A stretch of DNA of 50,342 nucleotides, taken from the NCBI GenBank assembly GCA_012522415.1, contig JAAYKM010000044.1:1-50342 (forward strand), given 5' to 3'. This stretch comes from Deltaproteobacteria bacterium. GTDB lineage: Bacteria; Desulfobacterota; Syntrophia; Syntrophales; JAAYKM01. The notes beneath the pieces are model-generated. The model was not told the DNA's origin. It did not search any database and saw only the letters and a list, made by a program, of their open reading frames with translations. Made by a program: the position numbers and the translations under genes. Below, in pieces: positions 7,017 to 50,342 of the stretch (the first letter of the stretch is position 1; each line of letters begins with the position of its first letter).

Positions 7017-7168
7017 TTATCCGTGACATTAAAATCTTTAGAAAGCAGGGTTCCTCATTGTCAGTTTTCATTGAGTTGCCGATTTTCAGAAGTGGGAGAG
7101 GATTGTAAATGTTTGATAACTCTGTTTTTCCACAGGTATTTTCTCAGCGAGAAAGGAGAATAAGGAAA

Positions 7169-8563
7169 ATGAGATTATTTTTGAGGTACGCCATTTCCCT
7201 TGTTGTGTTATTTCTTTTTTCTGGATTTGAACCCGTCCAAGGGGAAACGATTCAGGACGCCGTTCAGGCCATACTGAAATCGAATCCGGATATTCGTGCC
7301 GCCGCCTATAACAGGCTGGCGAGAGAGCAGGAGGTTGTGCAGGCTAAATCCAGGTTCTTTCCAACCCTGGATGCCCTCGGTCGGGCAGGATATTACAGAA
7401 AGGAGCATCCCTTCAAGGATCACGATTGGCCGAGGGAAGCGATCCTGAGTCTCAGGCAGAATGTGTTTGAAGGTGGCGCCACCTTGTCCGAAGTCCAACG
7501 CCAGCAGGCGCGGGTCAAATCGCAGGCCTACTTGCTGCAGGCCCAGTCGGAGGTCATCGGTTTACAGGCCTGCAAAGTCTATCTGAGTGTTTTGCAGCAA
7601 CAAGACCTGCTGGATCTGGCGAAAGAAAATCTCCTGATTCATGAACGAATTTACGATCAAATGAAAATGAGAAGTCAGGCCGGTATTGATCGGAGGGCCG
7701 ATCTCGAACAGGTTATGGGCCGTCTGGCCCTGGCCCAATCGAATCTGGTCGTTGCCAAGGCGAATCTTGAGGATGGGAGGACGGATTATCAGGCCGTCAT
7801 CGGCCATCTTCCGGAAGAACTGGAAAGGCCGGAATCGGTTGAAGCGGTTATTCCTCCCACCAAGGAAGAAGCGGAACAGACTGCCATCAAAAATTATCCT
7901 CTCCTGAAATCGGCACAGGCAGACCTGGAGGCGCGTCAAAAGCAGCACGAGACGGCAAAACGAGTCAATTATCCAAGCCTTGATCTCACCGTGGATTATC
8001 GATGGGCGGATGATGTTGATTCCATTCCCTACGAGGAAGATCTGACGGCCATGGCGAATGTGCGTTTCAACATTTTTAATGGCTTCAAGGACAAAGGGCG
8101 GATTGACGAAACCCGATACCTGATCAATGAAGCCGAAGAGATAAGGAACAGCACACAACGCCAACTGGTTCATTCCATTCGCCTCTCTTATGAGGCCTAT
8201 CTGGCGGCCCAGGACCGTGTCAAGAATCTCGAGGAATACGCGAAAGCCGCCGGCTTGACAGCGGAAGCATTTACGGCACAGTGGACAATCGGGCGCCGGA
8301 CGATGTTTGATGTTTTGGATACGCAGGCGGAATATATCAATGCAAAATCGGATCTCGTGACGGCAAAATACCAGAAGAGGTATGCTGAATACCGTGTTCT
8401 GAGCGGAATGGGGCTTTTGACAAAAACGATGGAGCTTGAATGGCCGGAAGAGAGCGTCGTCGAAAGAGATCAGGTCGCGGTGGTGAAGAAATCGGCTTCC
8501 GAAGAGGGGGCGGCACCGGATGAAGCATCGGCAGCAGAGGCGGAGATGGATCAGGAAGATTAA
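7169..8563 (+). CDS. tolC: TolC-family outer-membrane protein of the type I secretion locus (LapE-like)
   Basis: This is an outer-membrane/periplasmic tunnel protein for type I secretion, 464 residues from this start. Residues 1-~25 form a signal peptide (basic MRLFLR, a hydrophobic stretch, then a likely cut after VQG). Two outer-membrane efflux protein repeats rich in Ala, Gln and Glu follow, as expected for TolC coiled coils. The last ~30 residues are acidic and Ala-rich. An in-frame ATG at 7109 also has a good Shine-Dalgarno (GGGAGAGGA). I chose 7169 because it gives a normal-length signal peptide and has AAGGAG/AAGGA upstream, but the longer form is possible. It has its own promoter and a strong terminator. 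Its place beside LapG/LapD and an ABC-HlyD pair suggests it completes that exporter. Confidence 0.9.
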   Translation: MRLFLRYAISLVVLFLFSGFEPVQGETIQDAVQAILKSNPDIRAAAYNRLAREQEVVQAKSRFFPTLDALGRAGYYRKEHPFKDHDWPREAILSLRQNVFEGGATLSEVQRQQARVKSQAYLLQAQSEVIGLQACKVYLSVLQQQDLLDLAKENLLIHERIYDQMKMRSQAGIDRRADLEQVMGRLALAQSNLVVAKANLEDGRTDYQAVIGHLPEELERPESVEAVIPPTKEEAEQTAIKNYPLLKSAQADLEARQKQHETAKRVNYPSLDLTVDYRWADDVDSIPYEEDLTAMANVRFNIFNGFKDKGRIDETRYLINEAEEIRNSTQRQLVHSIRLSYEAYLAAQDRVKNLEEYAKAAGLTAEAFTAQWTIGRRTMFDVLDTQAEYINAKSDLVTAKYQKRYAEYRVLSGMGLLTKTMELEWPEESVVERDQVAVVKKSASEEGAAPDEASAAEAEMDQED

Positions 8564-8793: not shown

Positions 8794-9381
8794 TTGACTG
8801 GGAACAACAACATACTTAGATGGATAATACTTTTCCAGATATGCCTGTTCTTTTTCGCTATTTTGTGTTCCGCATTCACCAAAGAAAATTTTCGTTTGAA
8901 TCAGGAGCTCTTGGTCAAAGTGGAACAAAAATACGGTAAAGCGGCGGTGGACAGGCTTATGCAATGGGAGGAACTGATTCGTATCGGTAAGAGGTTGACC
9001 GATCTTCAAAAATTGGAAAAAACCAACCGTTTCTTTAACAGAATGGCGTTTGCGAATGACGTGGACCTCTGGGGGGTGAGGGATTACTGGGCCACTCCGG
9101 TTCAGTTCATCTGTAAAAACGCCGGAGATTGTGAGGATTTTGCCATCGCAAAATATTTTACCTTGAAAGCCATGGGGGTTTCCGAGAGCAAACTGAACAT
9201 CACCTATGTAAAAGCTGTTCGCTATAACATGCCCCACATGGTAGTGACATACTATGGTAAACCCGGATCTGAACCGATGATTCTTGACAATTTGATCGAT
9301 ACGGTTGAGTTGGCTTCGAAGAGAACAGATCTGGTGCCCGTTTTTACATTCAACGGCACGGGGCTTTGGCTGGCTCACTAA
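8794..9381 (+). CDS. lapG: LapG-like periplasmic cysteine protease, cut short by an in-frame TAA
   Basis: This is a bacterial transglutaminase-like cysteine peptidase. In the Pseudomonas Lap system LapG cleaves the N-terminus of a giant adhesin in the periplasm and is held back by LapD when c-di-GMP is high. It starts with TTG at 8794 after AAGGA. Residues ~7-27 are a signal or anchor segment. The catalytic triad appears as Cys113 (GDCEDFAIAK), His148 (PHMVV) and Asp165 (ILDNL). The 195-residue product ends in NGTGLWLAH-stop, whereas LapG proteins I recall continue with a Gln-Arg-Gly rich tail. That tail is present in frame after the TAA (9382-9468). The catalytic core is intact, so the short protein might still work. 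lapD starts shortly downstream. Confidence 0.88.
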   Translation: MTGNNNILRWIILFQICLFFFAILCSAFTKENFRLNQELLVKVEQKYGKAAVDRLMQWEELIRIGKRLTDLQKLEKTNRFFNRMAFANDVDLWGVRDYWATPVQFICKNAGDCEDFAIAKYFTLKAMGVSESKLNITYVKAVRYNMPHMVVTYYGKPGSEPMILDNLIDTVELASKRTDLVPVFTFNGTGLWLAH

Positions 9382-9468
9382 CGAGGACAGGGAAAACTCG
9401 CCGGCTCCAGCAGCAGAATCACGCCCTGGAATGACCTGCTGAAAAGAATATCGGAAAACGATCCTTAA
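9382..9468 (+). pseudogene. lapG: In-frame continuation of lapG beyond its TAA stop
   Basis: After the TAA at 9379-9381 the same frame stays open for 28 codons and ends at TAA 9466-9468. It begins RGQGKLAGSSSRITPWNDLL, which resembles the usual C-terminal segment of LapG-family proteases (LWLA-x-QRG-x-G...S-R-L-x-x-W-x-DL, from memory). Changing TAA to CAA would restore the expected Gln and give a protein of 224 residues. The extension also leaves only 14 nt before the lapD start, a more normal operon spacing. It may be a nonsense mutation, a sequencing error or a recoded stop. Confidence 0.7.
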
Positions 9469-9482
9469 ACGGGGGGAAGTGC

Positions 9483-11453
9483 ATGACCCTATACCGACAA
9501 TTATTTATTTTTACACTTTGTCTTTTCTTTCTCCTTTTTATGGGAAGCTGGCTGGCCAAATTCGAGAGTACCCGGACGTTTCTGATGAACCAGCTCGAAT
9601 CTCATGCCCAGGATACGGCGACTTCCCTCGGTCTTTCCATTACCACATCAGTGGTCAACAAAGACATGCCCACCGTGGAAAGCATGATCAATGCCGTTTT
9701 TGATCGGGGATTCTATGAATCGATTCGTCTGGCTGACAATGAAAATGAGACGACGCTCGAAAGGAATCTGAAGATAACCGTGGAAACGGTTCCTCAATGG
9801 TTTATTGCCCTCGTCCGCCTGCAAACACCGGAGGCATCGGCAAAGCTCATGTCGGGCTGGCGTCAGGTCGGTACCGTCCACGTGAAGAGTCATCCGGGCT
9901 ACGCCTACAATACCCTCTGGAACGATGTCGGGCACATGACACTGTGGTTCACGGCTTGCGGTGTTCTCGTGTTGGTCGGCGGCGCTCTTGGCCTCCGGGT
10001 TCTTTTGAAGCCCCTGATCCGTGTGGAAAAACAGGCCAACGCCCTTTGCCGGAAGGAATACGAGGTTCAAGAGGATCTGCCCTGGACGAAGGAGTTGAGG
10101 TCGGTCGTTCAGGCCATGAACCGGATGACCCTGAAAGTCCGGGAAATGTTCGAGGAACAGGTGGCCAACGCCGAGAGTTTGCGAAAACGCGCTTACACGG
10201 ATCCCCTCACAGGTCTGGGTAACCGGCGTTATTTTGACAGTCAGACAACCGCCTATCTGGAAAAACGGGAAATCGAGAAAAAAGGCATGCTTTTCCTCGT
10301 TCAGCTCCACGATCTGTCCGGCCTGAATCGGAGCCAAGGATTTCAGGCCGGTGATGAACTGCTCAGAAGGGTGGGGACTCTGCTGAGAGATTGCTTCATC
10401 TCTTACGAAAACAGCGTGCTTTCACGGCTTACGGGGGGTGATTTCGCCGTTTTTCTTCCAGATGCGTTTCAATTTGAGGCGGAATCGCTCTCAAGAAGAA
10501 TTACGGACCACCTGAAGCAGATAGCGACGGAAAAGATTTCCCTATCGGAAAACGTGGGGCACGTCGGGGTTGTTTATTTTGACGGGTTCGAAAGTCTTTC
10601 CCGCCTTCTTTCGGAGGCCGATGCGGCCCTGGCCTCGGCGGTTCAAAGCGGTCCGAACACCTGGCGCAGCAGGGCAATCGGAATTGAAAGCGCCGAAACA
10701 CCTTTGGGACGGCAGCAGTGGAAAGAATTTCTGGAAAAGTCGTTCAGGGAAGAGAAAATCACTCTGGATGCGCAGCCCGTCGTCAGGGCACAGGAAAAGG
10801 ATCAGCTTTTGCATCTCGAGGTTTTTGCCCGGATCATTCAGGAGAACGGTGAATTGCTGAACGCGGCGTCCTTCATGCCCTTTGCCGAACGCCTGGAGAT
10901 GGTATCGGCATTGGACCGTCTCGTCATTAAAAAAATCGCCTCCATCGACCGCCGAAGGCTTCCCGTCGATACAGTCGCCCTCAATATCTCTGCGGCATCG
11001 CTCCGGGATTCCTCCTTCTTTCAATGGATAGAAACGATTTTGGATGAATTGACGCCTTCCGCCCCGCGCCTGGTTTTCGAATTTACCGAATTCGGCGTGA
11101 TGCAGAATATGGATCTGTTGCGACAATTCAAAACGTTGGCGGGAAAACACGGCCATGCGGTGGGCCTTGACCATTTCGGACAAAGCTTCAGCCATCTGGC
11201 CTATTTACAATCGTTACAACCCGAATATGTGAAGATTGACAGCGCCTATACGAGCGAGATTAAGGAAGAGGAAAATGACAGCCGCTTTTATATTCGCGCT
11301 CTTTGCAGTGTGGCCCACAGTATCGATATTTCCGTCATAGCGGAGGGTGTCGAAACGGAGGAACAGTACAGACTTCTTAAAGACTTGAATCTGGATGGTG
11401 TCAAAGGCTATATGATTGAAAAACCAAGATCTCTTGAATCGTTTTTGGTGTAG
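9483..11453 (+). CDS. lapD: LapD-like inner-membrane c-di-GMP receptor with degenerate GGDEF and EAL domains
   Basis: This is a predicted inside-out signalling protein. Cytoplasmic c-di-GMP binding to the EAL domain would make the periplasmic domain sequester LapG. The 656 residues run TM1 (~6-27), a LapD/MoxY-type periplasmic domain with the family's GWRQVGTVHVKSHPGYAY segment, TM2 (~152-175), HAMP, GGDEF (~235-395) and EAL (~410-650). The GGDEF signature reads TGGDF and the DDFG metal motif of EAL reads DHFG, with LEVF in place of EAL. Both enzymatic activities are therefore probably lost, as in known LapD. The start ATG follows GGGGGGAAG. The neighbours lapG and the exporter genes strongly support the role. 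Confidence 0.92.
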   Translation: MTLYRQLFIFTLCLFFLLFMGSWLAKFESTRTFLMNQLESHAQDTATSLGLSITTSVVNKDMPTVESMINAVFDRGFYESIRLADNENETTLERNLKITVETVPQWFIALVRLQTPEASAKLMSGWRQVGTVHVKSHPGYAYNTLWNDVGHMTLWFTACGVLVLVGGALGLRVLLKPLIRVEKQANALCRKEYEVQEDLPWTKELRSVVQAMNRMTLKVREMFEEQVANAESLRKRAYTDPLTGLGNRRYFDSQTTAYLEKREIEKKGMLFLVQLHDLSGLNRSQGFQAGDELLRRVGTLLRDCFISYENSVLSRLTGGDFAVFLPDAFQFEAESLSRRITDHLKQIATEKISLSENVGHVGVVYFDGFESLSRLLSEADAALASAVQSGPNTWRSRAIGIESAETPLGRQQWKEFLEKSFREEKITLDAQPVVRAQEKDQLLHLEVFARIIQENGELLNAASFMPFAERLEMVSALDRLVIKKIASIDRRRLPVDTVALNISAASLRDSSFFQWIETILDELTPSAPRLVFEFTEFGVMQNMDLLRQFKTLAGKHGHAVGLDHFGQSFSHLAYLQSLQPEYVKIDSAYTSEIKEEENDSRFYIRALCSVAHSIDISVIAEGVETEEQYRLLKDLNLDGVKGYMIEKPRSLESFLV

Positions 11454-11562: not shown

Positions 11563-11895
11563 TCATATAATATCGTCAACGGTGAGGATGCTGTGGGAAG
11601 CGTGTTTTTCGCGGATTTTTTTCCGTTCCATGATTTTTTCCTGTGCTTTTTCAGGAAGTTCGGTAAAGATGATGACGTTTTTGCGGATCAGAAGATCGAC
11701 CATGTCTTCCAGAAGACGGATGAAGCCCATATCAGATATGGCAAGCAGGGTTTGCCAGGATTCATTTGTGGCATTTTGTTCCAGGAAATCCAGGATATCC
11801 TGGTCAATCGATTTTTTCTGTTCCGTGGCATTGTGTTTCGGCTTGTTGTGTAAAGCGATGATTTTTCCTTCCTTATCCCGTTCAACATACAACAT
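11563..11895 (-). CDS. Small conserved protein, often labelled tryptophan synthase beta-like
   Basis: A 110-residue soluble protein beginning MLYVERDKEGKIIAL, with a conserved-looking core (MGFIRLLEDMVDLLIRKNVI) and LPEKAQEKIMERK near the end. I recall short Pseudomonas proteins with this pattern annotated as tryptophan synthase subunit beta-like. That name is misleading, because no PLP-enzyme fold could fit and no catalytic motif is present. It lies on the opposite strand between lapD and lapB and so splits the locus. Function is unknown. It may be a stand-alone gene or an accessory factor. Confidence 0.7.
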   Translation of the reverse strand: MLYVERDKEGKIIALHNKPKHNATEQKKSIDQDILDFLEQNATNESWQTLLAISDMGFIRLLEDMVDLLIRKNVIIFTELPEKAQEKIMERKKIREKHASHSILTVDDII

Positions 11896-12082: not shown

Positions 12083-14260
12083 ATGTCCGAAGATAAAATG
12101 ATTGAATCCGTCGTGGAAGAATGGGGCATTGGCAAAGAAACGGATGGTCATGCCGATCCATTACTCGACTGCCTTGTGCAGATCAGTAAAATTCATGCCC
12201 GGCCATCCACCAGAACGGGCCTCAGTTCAGGCTTGCCCCTGGTCAACAACAGGCTGACCGTGGGATTGTTCGCCAGGGCGGCTGCACGGGCGGATTTATC
12301 AACACGCATTGTGGGCAAACCCCTTGCGGAAATTTTGTCCATCCAGTTGCCTGCGGTTTTGCTGCTCCATGAAAGGCAGGCCTGTGTCCTGATCGACGTC
12401 ATCGATGGCGGCAACCGGTTTAAAGTCCTTTTGCCCGAAACGGGTATGGGCGAGAAGGTGGTCGCCAAGGAAGAACTGGAGAAAATCTATACGGGTTACG
12501 CCATCTTTGTCAACCCCAAGTACCGCGTGGGGAACAAATCTCTGGACGATGCCGGTGCAGGCAAGACGACCCACTGGTTCTGGGGGACAATCTGGGAATC
12601 CTGGCGGGTGTATCGGGATGTACTGTTGGCCGCCTTTCTCATCAATGTTCTTGGGCTTGTCGGGATCTTTTACGTGTTGAATGTGTATGATCGGGTGATT
12701 CCAAACAGCGCCTACGAAACACTTTGGGTGCTGTCAGTCGGTGTGACGATCGTGTACATCTTTTCCGTCGTCATGAGGGGGTTACGCAGTCATTTTATTG
12801 ATGAAGCCGGTAAAAAAACGAACCTGAAACTTTCCTCGATGCTTCTGCAAAAGGTGCTGGATCTGAAAATGGAGGCGCGACCCCAATCCATTGGTTCCTT
12901 TACCAACAATTTACAGGAATTCGAAAGCATCCGGGACTTCATTACGTCGTTCTCCATTACGGCCCTCATCGATATTCCTTTCATGCTTCTGGGTCTTCTG
13001 GTGGTCTGGTACATCGGAAGTATCCTGGTGCTTCCGTTTTCTGTTGCCATTGTCTGTCTCCTCGCTTATGCTTATTTTGTTCAGAAACCTCTGCAGGATG
13101 CAGTGGAAAGGTCCGTCAAAGCCTCGGCGCAGAAGAACGCTATTTTGGTGGAAGGAGTCGCCGGTCTTGAAACAATCAAGATGCTCGGGGCGGAAAGCCA
13201 GATTCAGCGTGCATGGGAAGAAGCGGTCAGTTTTATTGCAAAATGGAGCAGTCGTTCCCGCTTTCTTTCTTCATCCGTACAGGATGTGGCTTTCTTTATT
13301 CAGAGCACGGTGGTCGTTGTCGTCGTTATCGGTGGCGTCTACATGATAAGCGACGCAAGGCTGACCCAGGGCGGTTTGATTGCTCTGGTCATCCTCTCCC
13401 GGCAGGTCTTGGCGCCCATGGCTCAGGTGGTCAATCTCGCCACCCGCTATCACCGCTGCAAGGAAGCCCTCAGAACGCTGGATGACATCATGAAGTTGCC
13501 CGTTGAACGTCCCGACGGCAAGAATTTTGTTTTAAGATCCCATTTTGACGGAGCCATCGGCGTTAAAAGCCTTTCTTTTGCCTATCCCAACCAGCTCAAC
13601 AAGGTTTTGAATAATATCAGCCTCCAGATCAACGCCGGAGAAAAAGTGGGGATCATCGGCCCGGTGGGTTCGGGAAAAACGACACTGGGAAAATTGCTCT
13701 TAGGTCTTTTCGAGCCGACGAACGGCATGGTCACGATGGACGGAACGGATATCCGCCAGATCGACCCGGCTGAATTGCGCCACTTCATCGGTTACGTTCC
13801 CCAGGATATTGTTTTGTTCAAGGGAACGGTGCGAGATAATGTCACCATGGGAACCCACGACATCGATGATCAGACTGTGCTCCGGGCCGCCGAATTGACG
13901 GGTGTTTATAATTTTGTTAAGAATCATCCTCTGGGTTTCGATATGGAGGTACAGGAGTTTGGAAGGGGGCTTTCCGGCGGCCAAAGGCAATGCGTGGTCC
14001 TGGCAAGGGCACTCCTGATGGATCCCCCGATTCTTGTTTTGGACGAACCGACCAGCAATATGGACAACCGAAGCGAGATTCGGTTAAAGAACAATTTGTC
14101 GAAGATCATTAAAAATAAAACCCTGATCCTGATTACCCATCGGGCATCGCTTCTCGAAATGGTGGATCGCTTGATCGTCATCGACAACGGCACGATTGTG
14201 GCTGATGGACCGAAATCATTTGTCATTGAGGCCATGAAGAAAGGCCAACTAAATATTTAG
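12083..14260 (+). CDS. lapB: Type I secretion ABC transporter, permease/ATPase (LapB-like)
   Basis: This inner-membrane exporter powers one-step secretion of large C-terminally signalled proteins. The 725 residues contain an N-terminal C39-like domain (~25-150) without the peptidase Cys, as in RTX exporters. A six-helix transmembrane domain (~170-460) and an ABC ATPase (~480-725) follow. The ATPase has Walker A GPVGSGKTTL (~526), signature LSGGQRQ (~629) and Walker B ILVLDEPT (~650). The ATG at 12083 has a purine-rich AAAGGAAAG some distance upstream. lapC starts 13 nt after the stop. A dead C39 domain usually means recognition without cleavage, which fits a giant adhesin or RTX-type substrate. 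Confidence 0.93.
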   Translation: MSEDKMIESVVEEWGIGKETDGHADPLLDCLVQISKIHARPSTRTGLSSGLPLVNNRLTVGLFARAAARADLSTRIVGKPLAEILSIQLPAVLLLHERQACVLIDVIDGGNRFKVLLPETGMGEKVVAKEELEKIYTGYAIFVNPKYRVGNKSLDDAGAGKTTHWFWGTIWESWRVYRDVLLAAFLINVLGLVGIFYVLNVYDRVIPNSAYETLWVLSVGVTIVYIFSVVMRGLRSHFIDEAGKKTNLKLSSMLLQKVLDLKMEARPQSIGSFTNNLQEFESIRDFITSFSITALIDIPFMLLGLLVVWYIGSILVLPFSVAIVCLLAYAYFVQKPLQDAVERSVKASAQKNAILVEGVAGLETIKMLGAESQIQRAWEEAVSFIAKWSSRSRFLSSSVQDVAFFIQSTVVVVVVIGGVYMISDARLTQGGLIALVILSRQVLAPMAQVVNLATRYHRCKEALRTLDDIMKLPVERPDGKNFVLRSHFDGAIGVKSLSFAYPNQLNKVLNNISLQINAGEKVGIIGPVGSGKTTLGKLLLGLFEPTNGMVTMDGTDIRQIDPAELRHFIGYVPQDIVLFKGTVRDNVTMGTHDIDDQTVLRAAELTGVYNFVKNHPLGFDMEVQEFGRGLSGGQRQCVVLARALLMDPPILVLDEPTSNMDNRSEIRLKNNLSKIIKNKTLILITHRASLLEMVDRLIVIDNGTIVADGPKSFVIEAMKKGQLNI

Positions 14261-14273
14261 CGGGAGAAAAAAA

Positions 14274-15635
14274 TTGGCCGAAACCGAAAAGAAACGAAAA
14301 ATCAATGAACTGTTCCGCCGGATGCCTGAGGATGTGCCCGATTACATCACCGACATCCGGCATGCAATCATGGCTCAGTCACCACGCGGAGGCCGTTTGA
14401 TTCTATACGCCACCACGCTTCTGTTTGTGATTTTTTTGATCTGGGCGGGATTGTCCGAAGTGGAGGAATCAACGCGCGGGGAAGGGAAGGTGATTCCTTC
14501 CGGCCATATCCAGGTCGTACAGAATCTCGAAGGTGGAATCATCGCGGAAATTCTGGTCAACGTGGGGGAGCTGGTCGAAAAGGACCAGCTTCTCCTGAGA
14601 ATCGATGAAACCCGTTTCGCCTCGTCCTTTCAGGAAAACCGTGCCAAATATCTGGCCGATAAAGCGAAAGCGGCGCGTTTGGAGGCGGAGGCTTCGGGAA
14701 CGCCGTTTCGTGTGCCGGAAGAGGTTCTGAAGGAAAAACCTGAAATAGCGGCTTTGGAACAGGAACTTTATCAATCCAGAATGTTCGAGCTTCAGTCCAG
14801 TTTGAGCATCAAGAAACAGCAGGCCCACCAGCGAAAGATCGAGTTACAGGAACTGAGAAGCAAACAGGAGGAACTGATACGTACAAACGCCCTGCTGCAA
14901 CAGGAGTTGAGGATGACCAAACCGTTGGTTGCGAAAGGCGCCGTGTCAGATGTGGAAATCCTGCGGCTCGAACGGGAGGTCAGCCAGAAGGAAGGAGAAA
15001 TTGTCTCTATTCGCCATGAAATCCCAAGGGCCCAATCGAAATACCAGGAGGCCATGATGGCCATCCAGGAATTGAATCTGAACTATTCGAACAAATCCAA
15101 GGCTGAACTAAACGAAGTGCTGGCGCAGGTCGATGAATCCTCCAGCACCTCCCTGGCCCTGAAGGATCGCCTGGAACGCACGGCGGTGCGCTCTCCCGTG
15201 AACGGTACCGTGAATCGTCTTTTGGTCACTACAATCGGGGGGGTCGTGCAGCCGGGCATGGACCTTGTCGAAATTGTACCTCGGGAAGGCAGCCTTCTGA
15301 TCGAAGCCCAGATCAAACCTTCAGATATCGCTTTCCTCCGGCCCGGCCAAGATGCTAATATCAAATTCACGGCGTACGATTATACGATTTACGGCAGTCT
15401 GCCGGCCAAACTGGAACATATCAGCGCAGACAGCATTACCGACGAGAGGGGAAACAGCTTTTATCTGGTCAGGCTTCGGACAAAAAAGAACTTCCTCGGC
15501 ACCACCCAGCATCAATTGCCGATCATTCCCGGCATGGTTTCAACCGTGGATATTTTGACCGGCAAGAAGACCATCCTTTCCTATATTCTAAAACCGGTTT
15601 TAAGAGCAAAGTCCTCGGCATTAAGGGAGAGATAA
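14274..15635 (+). CDS. lapC: HlyD-family periplasmic adaptor of type I secretion (LapC-like)
   Basis: This membrane fusion protein bridges the ABC exporter and the TolC-like tunnel. It has 453 residues: a short cytoplasmic N-terminus, one TM helix (~38-60, LILYATTLLFVIFLIWAGL), a split biotinyl-lipoyl domain (EGGIIAEILVNVGELVEKDQ), a long coiled coil (~150-290) and a beta-barrel with the HlyD-type C-terminal region. The start is TTG at 14274 preceded by GGGAG. It sits between lapB and the LuxR-type gene with gaps of 13 and 2 nt, so the three are almost certainly one transcript. Confidence 0.93.
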   Translation: MAETEKKRKINELFRRMPEDVPDYITDIRHAIMAQSPRGGRLILYATTLLFVIFLIWAGLSEVEESTRGEGKVIPSGHIQVVQNLEGGIIAEILVNVGELVEKDQLLLRIDETRFASSFQENRAKYLADKAKAARLEAEASGTPFRVPEEVLKEKPEIAALEQELYQSRMFELQSSLSIKKQQAHQRKIELQELRSKQEELIRTNALLQQELRMTKPLVAKGAVSDVEILRLEREVSQKEGEIVSIRHEIPRAQSKYQEAMMAIQELNLNYSNKSKAELNEVLAQVDESSSTSLALKDRLERTAVRSPVNGTVNRLLVTTIGGVVQPGMDLVEIVPREGSLLIEAQIKPSDIAFLRPGQDANIKFTAYDYTIYGSLPAKLEHISADSITDERGNSFYLVRLRTKKNFLGTTQHQLPIIPGMVSTVDILTGKKTILSYILKPVLRAKSSALRER

Positions 15636-15637
15636 AT

Positions 15638-16267
15638 ATGGCGAACATTCTGCTCGGAGCTTCAAACAGGGCTCTTATCAAGCGCTGGCTCGGATTATTA
15701 CCGAAAAATACAAAAACCGACACGGCCATGACCCTGTCGGAGTTCCTGCAAAAATGTGTTTCGAAAAACCACGATCTGGTCATCGTCCATCGTTCGTTCA
15801 TCGATGTGAAGGCATTCATGGAACTCAAAAAACTCACCCCCATGCTCAAATATTTTCTTCTTTCGGATGAACCCAACGAAGAGGAAGGGCTTGCCTTTCT
15901 GAAACTGGGCATCGTCGGATACGGCAATACATATATTTCTCCGAACCGCATGGCGGATGCCATCCGCGTTGTGTCCGGCGGCGGTGTCTGGCTGGGGCAG
16001 AAAGTCATTCAGTTTCTGATCCAGGAGACCTATAACCGGACAAAGAGAGGATCCTCCGAAAAAAAAGAAAGGACCTCTCTGGATGGCTTGACCAGAGCGG
16101 AGTGGCGCATCGCCGAAATGGTTGCCATGGGACGCTCCAACCTGGAAATTGCAGCGGATCTCGGGATCACCGAACGGACGGTCAAGGCCCACCTGACCTC
16201 AATCTACGAGAAAACAAAAACAGGGAGCCGCCTGAATCTGGCCCTGTTGATCAATAAGCTGGAATAA
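15638..16267 (+). CDS. LuxR/NarL-type transcription regulator with a degenerate receiver domain
   Basis: A 209-residue DNA-binding regulator. Residues ~145-205 form a GerE/LuxR helix-turn-helix (LTRAEWRIAEMVAMGRSNLEIA, then TERTVKAHLTSIYEKTKT). The N-terminal ~120 residues look like a response-regulator receiver fold, but the expected phospho-acceptor Asp after the third strand is replaced (DLVIVHRSF), so classical phosphorylation is unlikely. It starts 2 nt after lapC with AGGGAGA upstream, so it is co-transcribed with the exporter. I infer a local controller of adhesin or matrix genes, perhaps through a ligand or protein partner. A CsgD-like role is possible but not shown. Confidence 0.85.
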   Translation: MANILLGASNRALIKRWLGLLPKNTKTDTAMTLSEFLQKCVSKNHDLVIVHRSFIDVKAFMELKKLTPMLKYFLLSDEPNEEEGLAFLKLGIVGYGNTYISPNRMADAIRVVSGGGVWLGQKVIQFLIQETYNRTKRGSSEKKERTSLDGLTRAEWRIAEMVAMGRSNLEIAADLGITERTVKAHLTSIYEKTKTGSRLNLALLINKLE

Positions 16268-50072: not shown

Positions 50073-50103
50073 CGGGAAAGGTTGTTATTGCGACCACGCC
50101 GGA

Positions 50104-50239
50104 CATTGCGAGGAACGCTCCCATGTCATTGCAAGGAACGCCCCAAGTCATTGCGAGGAGCGCCCCAGGTCATTGGGAGGAACGCCCCAGGCCATTGCAA
50201 GGAACGTCCCAGGTCATTTCGAGGAGTTGCCTCCCATGT
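50104..50239. repeat. Six tandem ~22-bp repeats downstream of argG
   Basis: Units begin at 50104, 50127, 50149, 50171, 50193 and 50215, with the consensus CATTGCGAGGAACGCCCCAGGT. Four are exactly 22 bp; the first is 23 and the last 25. They are contiguous with no spacers. The unit resembles the dispersed TCATTGCGAGGAGCG repeat known from several bacterial groups, here amplified in tandem. Confidence 0.85.
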
Positions 50240-50338
50240 CATTTCGACCCGGCGGATGCCGGGGAGAAATCTTAACCCCTGAGGTTTAGGAGGCGGCGTT
50301 ACGTTCAAGACTTCTCACGTTCGTTCGAAGTGACATGG
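50234..50338. mobile_element. 105-bp MITE-like or REP-like element with terminal inverted repeats
   Basis: The ends CCATGTCATTTCGA (50234-50247) and TCGAAGTGACATGG (50325-50338) are inverted copies with one mismatch. Inside, GGAGAAATCTT and AAGACTTCTC form a second, imperfect pair. It has no coding capacity. The sequence resembles the widespread TGTCATTTCGA...GAGAAATCTT palindromic repeat. Movement by an outside transposase is inferred, not shown. Confidence 0.55.
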
Positions 50339-50342
50339 AAAA

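Follow-up and report, generated by a model that had tools for sequence, protein, structure and literature searches.

We propose that a recent nonsense mutation, at codon 196 of 224, has probably crippled or wholly inactivated lapG in this genome, in which case the adhesin it acts on would stay anchored. The stop is most likely an ordinary loss-of-function allele in a known system, with no new mechanism. In the window, by which we mean the whole stretch of 50,342 nucleotides analyzed, lapG sits in a cluster with the canonical order tolC-lapG-lapD-lapB-lapC, and all of these genes but lapG are intact. The features are as follows.

7109-8563, + strand: tolC/lapE-like outer-membrane channel of a type 1 secretion system, intact
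8794-9381, + strand: lapG up to its premature stop, a cysteine protease of the BTLCP type (Peptidase_C93); 195 codons and the TAA
9379-9381, + strand: premature in-frame TAA (ochre) in lapG, where homologs have Gln, Glu, Asp or other sense residues
9382-9468, + strand: remainder of lapG past the stop, linker and C-terminal helix, 28 codons and the ancestral TAA
9483-11453, + strand: lapD with LapD_MoxY_N periplasmic domain, GWRQ LapG-binding loop and degenerate GGDEF and EAL motifs, intact
12083-14260, + strand: lapB-like ABC exporter with C39-like domain, intact
14274-15635, + strand: lapC-like HlyD membrane-fusion protein, intact
15638-16267, + strand: LuxR-type (GerE) response regulator, last gene of the cluster

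A lapG frame interrupted by a premature stop

The interrupted gene is a true lapG ortholog in a canonical Lap cluster, as the earlier note had recognized. Its product matches Pfam Peptidase_C93 at 55.3 bits (cutoff 27 bits), and the 195-aa product retains the complete catalytic triad (C113, H148 and D165) and the GDCED calcium motif at 111-115, all in invariant or nearly invariant columns. The neighboring LapD matches PF16448 at 152 bits, with GWRQ at 125. The open reading frame starts at TTG 8794 and ends at TAA 9379-9381, giving a C-terminus of GTGLWLAH. The TTG is the only start available and has a Shine-Dalgarno sequence very close to it; we do not claim start-codon loss as a second lesion, as several intact relatives have no early ATG and carry TTG at the matching place. 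Past the stop, the same frame continues as RGQGKLAGSSSRITPWNDLLKRISENDP for 28 codons (9382-9465) before a second TAA at 9466-9468. Taken alone, this open tail means little, because other genes in the window happen to be followed by 10-60 further open codons after their stops; it is the homology of the tail that counts. At the far end of the contig, positions 50073-50342 hold short tandem-like repeats that are open in three frames (e.g., HCEERSHVIARNAPSHCEERPRSL); they probably belong to a dispersed repeat at which the assembly broke off.

Homologs continue across the stop

We compared 80 named loci, in a scan of named genomes that skipped those closest to the genome of the window itself. All 80 align past the stop site, and none ends there or at LWLAH, the ending that the earlier note had named as evidence against its reading. 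The LapG chains of known structure, 4u65 and 4fgo, likewise align across the stop and include the tail. The residue in the stop column is Ala in 23 loci, Gln in 18, Glu in 9 and Asp in 7, with others in the remainder; the nearest homologs have Gln, Glu or Asp. The tail by itself aligns with one homolog at 73% identity over 26 aa (E = 4 × 10−13). These results bear out the earlier note's reading of the tail as the conserved end of the family and its expectation that homologs would cross the site with Gln or another sense residue. Its proposal of a single CAA-to-TAA change is plausible, because many relatives carry CAA at that codon, though unproven; others carry CAG, GAA, GAG or GAC.

Within the same order, a lapG match was found in 17 of 155 genomes, 15 of them strong. 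Among the strong matches, a stop inside lapG occurs only in the window's genome and in a second genome of its genus, to which we return below.

Age of the lesion

The tail of the window gene is as similar to its relatives as the body of the gene would predict (residual +0.05), and its erosion does not exceed that seen in relatives with an intact gene. The share of total tree length on the window branch is 12.6% (0.126) for lapG, against 14.5% for lapD, 10.6% for tolC and 11.5% for lapB, so that lapG has no excess divergence over these three genes on the window lineage. Given the similar branch share and the uneroded tail, lapG has been under constraint for nearly all of its lineage. A simple simulation of unconstrained tail drift put the 95% upper bound, by interpolation from 0.15 to 0.2, at ~0.16 neutral substitutions per site, and the lack of excess divergence and the intact tail thus point to a young lesion, below about this value. 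The comparison supports a stop that would be recent on this scale or, alternatively, a product or frame that may still be used and constrained, the same pair of options that the earlier note had put forward.

The missing C-terminal segment

The truncated product lacks a conserved C-terminal segment that is encoded beyond the stop. In this tail, W212 is invariant in 80 of 80 homologs, and R208, L215, G198 and G204 are nearly invariant. In an AF2 model built from 47 aligned sequences (mean pLDDT 85.2), the stop sits just after the last strand, and the tail forms a loose linker that leads into a helix at 193-207 in model numbering (window residues 206-220). We also modeled the truncated form. The LapG core was still modeled at high confidence, and the mean pLDDT of the last hairpin (residues 171-180) fell from 70 to 44. 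Because AF2 responds poorly to truncation and the alignment behind this second model ends unevenly, the comparison would favor destabilization of the truncated protein only weakly. Published work locates the LapD Trp pocket in the C-terminal lobe, at strand beta-4 and the motifs before it (PMC4359373). In the literature, we found no published test of LapG without this C-terminal helix and nothing relevant on natural lapG truncations. The stop draws attention to this helix, with its invariant Trp, as a part of LapG that lends itself to functional tests.

It is conceivable, though unlikely, that the truncated LapG still functions, either fully or with changed regulation. The helix would then be dispensable for catalysis, and its loss might shift stability, LapD docking or substrate docking. 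The intact catalytic Cys, His and Asp and the GDCED motif, the high-confidence core without the tail, and the unaccelerated evolution of the body are all in keeping with such a protein. A recent mutation, however, predicts an unaccelerated body equally well, and the conservation of the tail in every homolog, with its invariant Trp, and the poorly supported last hairpin speak against this reading.

Sequencing error, readthrough and switching

We consider it rather improbable that the gene is really intact and that the TAA reflects an error of sequencing or assembly or belongs to a minority variant of a mixed population. In favor of this are the draft state of the genome (158 contigs, 2.38% contamination) and a tail that shows no decay. 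On the other hand, the site has no homopolymer or repeat, no recognizable gene in the window other than lapG is interrupted, and single substitution errors are uncommon in assembled contigs.

The earlier note had also raised readthrough of the stop, which would yield some full-length LapG at a low or regulated level. We find this very unlikely. The downstream frame and its conserved residues have been kept, and the lapG stop is followed by C, in general a less tight context. Yet among stop codons TAA is usually the one that leaks least, and it ends eight intact genes or frames in the window (tolC, lapC, luxR, EF-G, uvrC, argF and others), of which tolC ends in the same TAAC context. None of the 45 tRNA matches in the genome has the ochre-reading UUA anticodon. 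Neither a decoding tRNA nor a conserved stop with a downstream signal, either of which would mark programmed readthrough, was found; the stop is absent from every homolog compared, and the preserved tail is explained by the youth of the mutation. Also highly improbable is a regulated or leaky TAA at which the ratio of 195-aa to 224-aa LapG sets adhesin release, with the short form acting as a decoy that binds LapD or substrate.

Two further candidates were rejected. An ochre suppressor tRNA was discarded: the 45 matches contain none, and the sole match left unassigned by ARAGORN reads as a Leu-like tRNA with a CAA anticodon. An alternative genetic code was set aside given the eight intact genes or frames ending in TAA and the TAA at another site in the lapG of the second genome of the genus. 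Separately, the genome encodes a tRNA-Sec (anticodon tca; L170, G000:C21:9368-9458) and probably makes selenoproteins, so in-frame TGA codons elsewhere need care.

A reversible phase-variation switch, also suggested in the earlier note, has nothing in its favor beyond adhesin release being, in general terms, something that could plausibly be switched, and with a single codon affected, no simple-sequence tract visible there and a single-base change not being a known high-frequency switch, we regard it as extremely unlikely.

A candidate substrate and the predicted consequence

A LapA-type retention module was found elsewhere in the genome (NF033682, 61.7 bits against a cutoff of 50 bits; G000:C108:669-1067), which rules out absence of a LapG substrate. 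The gene carries EPEAPAAGGE, that is, PAAG, which fits the LapG cleavage consensus [T/A/P]AAG (PMC13090378). It is a 383-codon open frame cut by the end of its contig (L127, 1-1120), unlinked to the lap cluster, and no match to the TIGR03661 (T1SS_VCA0849) profile for the adhesin C-terminus was found in the genome. As judged from these matches, the substrate N-terminus is present, with the adhesin seen as its N-terminal part only, and the retention-module protein is the probable substrate of LapG.

Under the nonsense mutation that we favor, LapG would lack the conserved linker and C-terminal helix after the last beta-strand and would most likely lose either its stability or its ability to cleave the adhesin, a step from truncation to inactivity that we infer. 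The LapA-type adhesin would then remain anchored whatever the c-di-GMP state, and the predicted phenotype is a stuck, hyper-adherent cell. P. fluorescens cells that have lost lapG no longer release LapA into the supernatant, carry twice as much of it on their surface and are hyper-adherent (PMC3032545). Of the earlier note's idea of a truncated protease that shifts adhesin release, the truncation stands, and the effect on release is a prediction. If the stop is fixed, this would be a natural Lap system that keeps its receptor, secretion system and adhesin with the release enzyme lost or altered, and its cells are predicted to be unable to detach by the usual route.

A decayed lapG relic in the same genus

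Genome G002, which matches Syntrophobacterales bacterium Xx448_bin26, belongs to the same genus as the window's genome (lepA 86% identical over the part compared). It carries a lapG relic (L051/L009, G002:C155, about 9791-10324) adjoining flgL, which lies upstream. The relic has its own in-frame TAA at a different site, GNCKD in place of GDCED, and a replaced N-terminus that resembles part of another gene. In the tree, it groups with the window lapG (support 67), and its branch (0.71) is 2.2 times the length of that of the window gene (0.32). At the column of the window's stop, the relic has CAG (Gln), which indicates that the window's stop is specific to its lineage and the two lesions independent. 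In G001 and G002 (72% and 75% complete), lapD and the retention module were not detected, and there was no lapB ortholog, the best matches being 40% and 34% vs. 70-72% elsewhere.

Interrupted lapG is thus seen in 2 of 2 lapG-bearing genomes of this genus and in 0 of the 13 other strong matches in the order, a pattern noticed after the fact that rests on draft genomes. Loss of LapG may have happened on two occasions in the genus, and the window lapG and the independently decayed G002 lapG hint at repeated loss of adhesin release.

Comparison with known Lap systems

The clusters of Geomonas, Syntrophobacterales GWC2_56_13 and Desulfobacteraceae S02.Bin041 have the same genes in the same order as the window (tolC-lapG-lapD-lapB). 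Unlike the window, their lapG is uninterrupted, and they lack the 110-aa minus-strand open reading frame that lies between lapD and lapB in the window (11563-11895). The adhesin adjoins lapG in two other genomes (G052 and G015), whereas it is unlinked in the window's genome. Compared with the LapG structures from Pseudomonas fluorescens (4u65 in the PDB) and Legionella pneumophila (4fgo, 4fgp and 4fgq), the window gene shares the fold, the catalytic triad and the calcium motif, likewise has a LapD neighbor with a GWxQ loop, and encodes the same C-terminal segment in its frame beyond the stop. The difference is that the window product ends 28 residues (plus the stop codon) early, before the conserved C-terminal helix.
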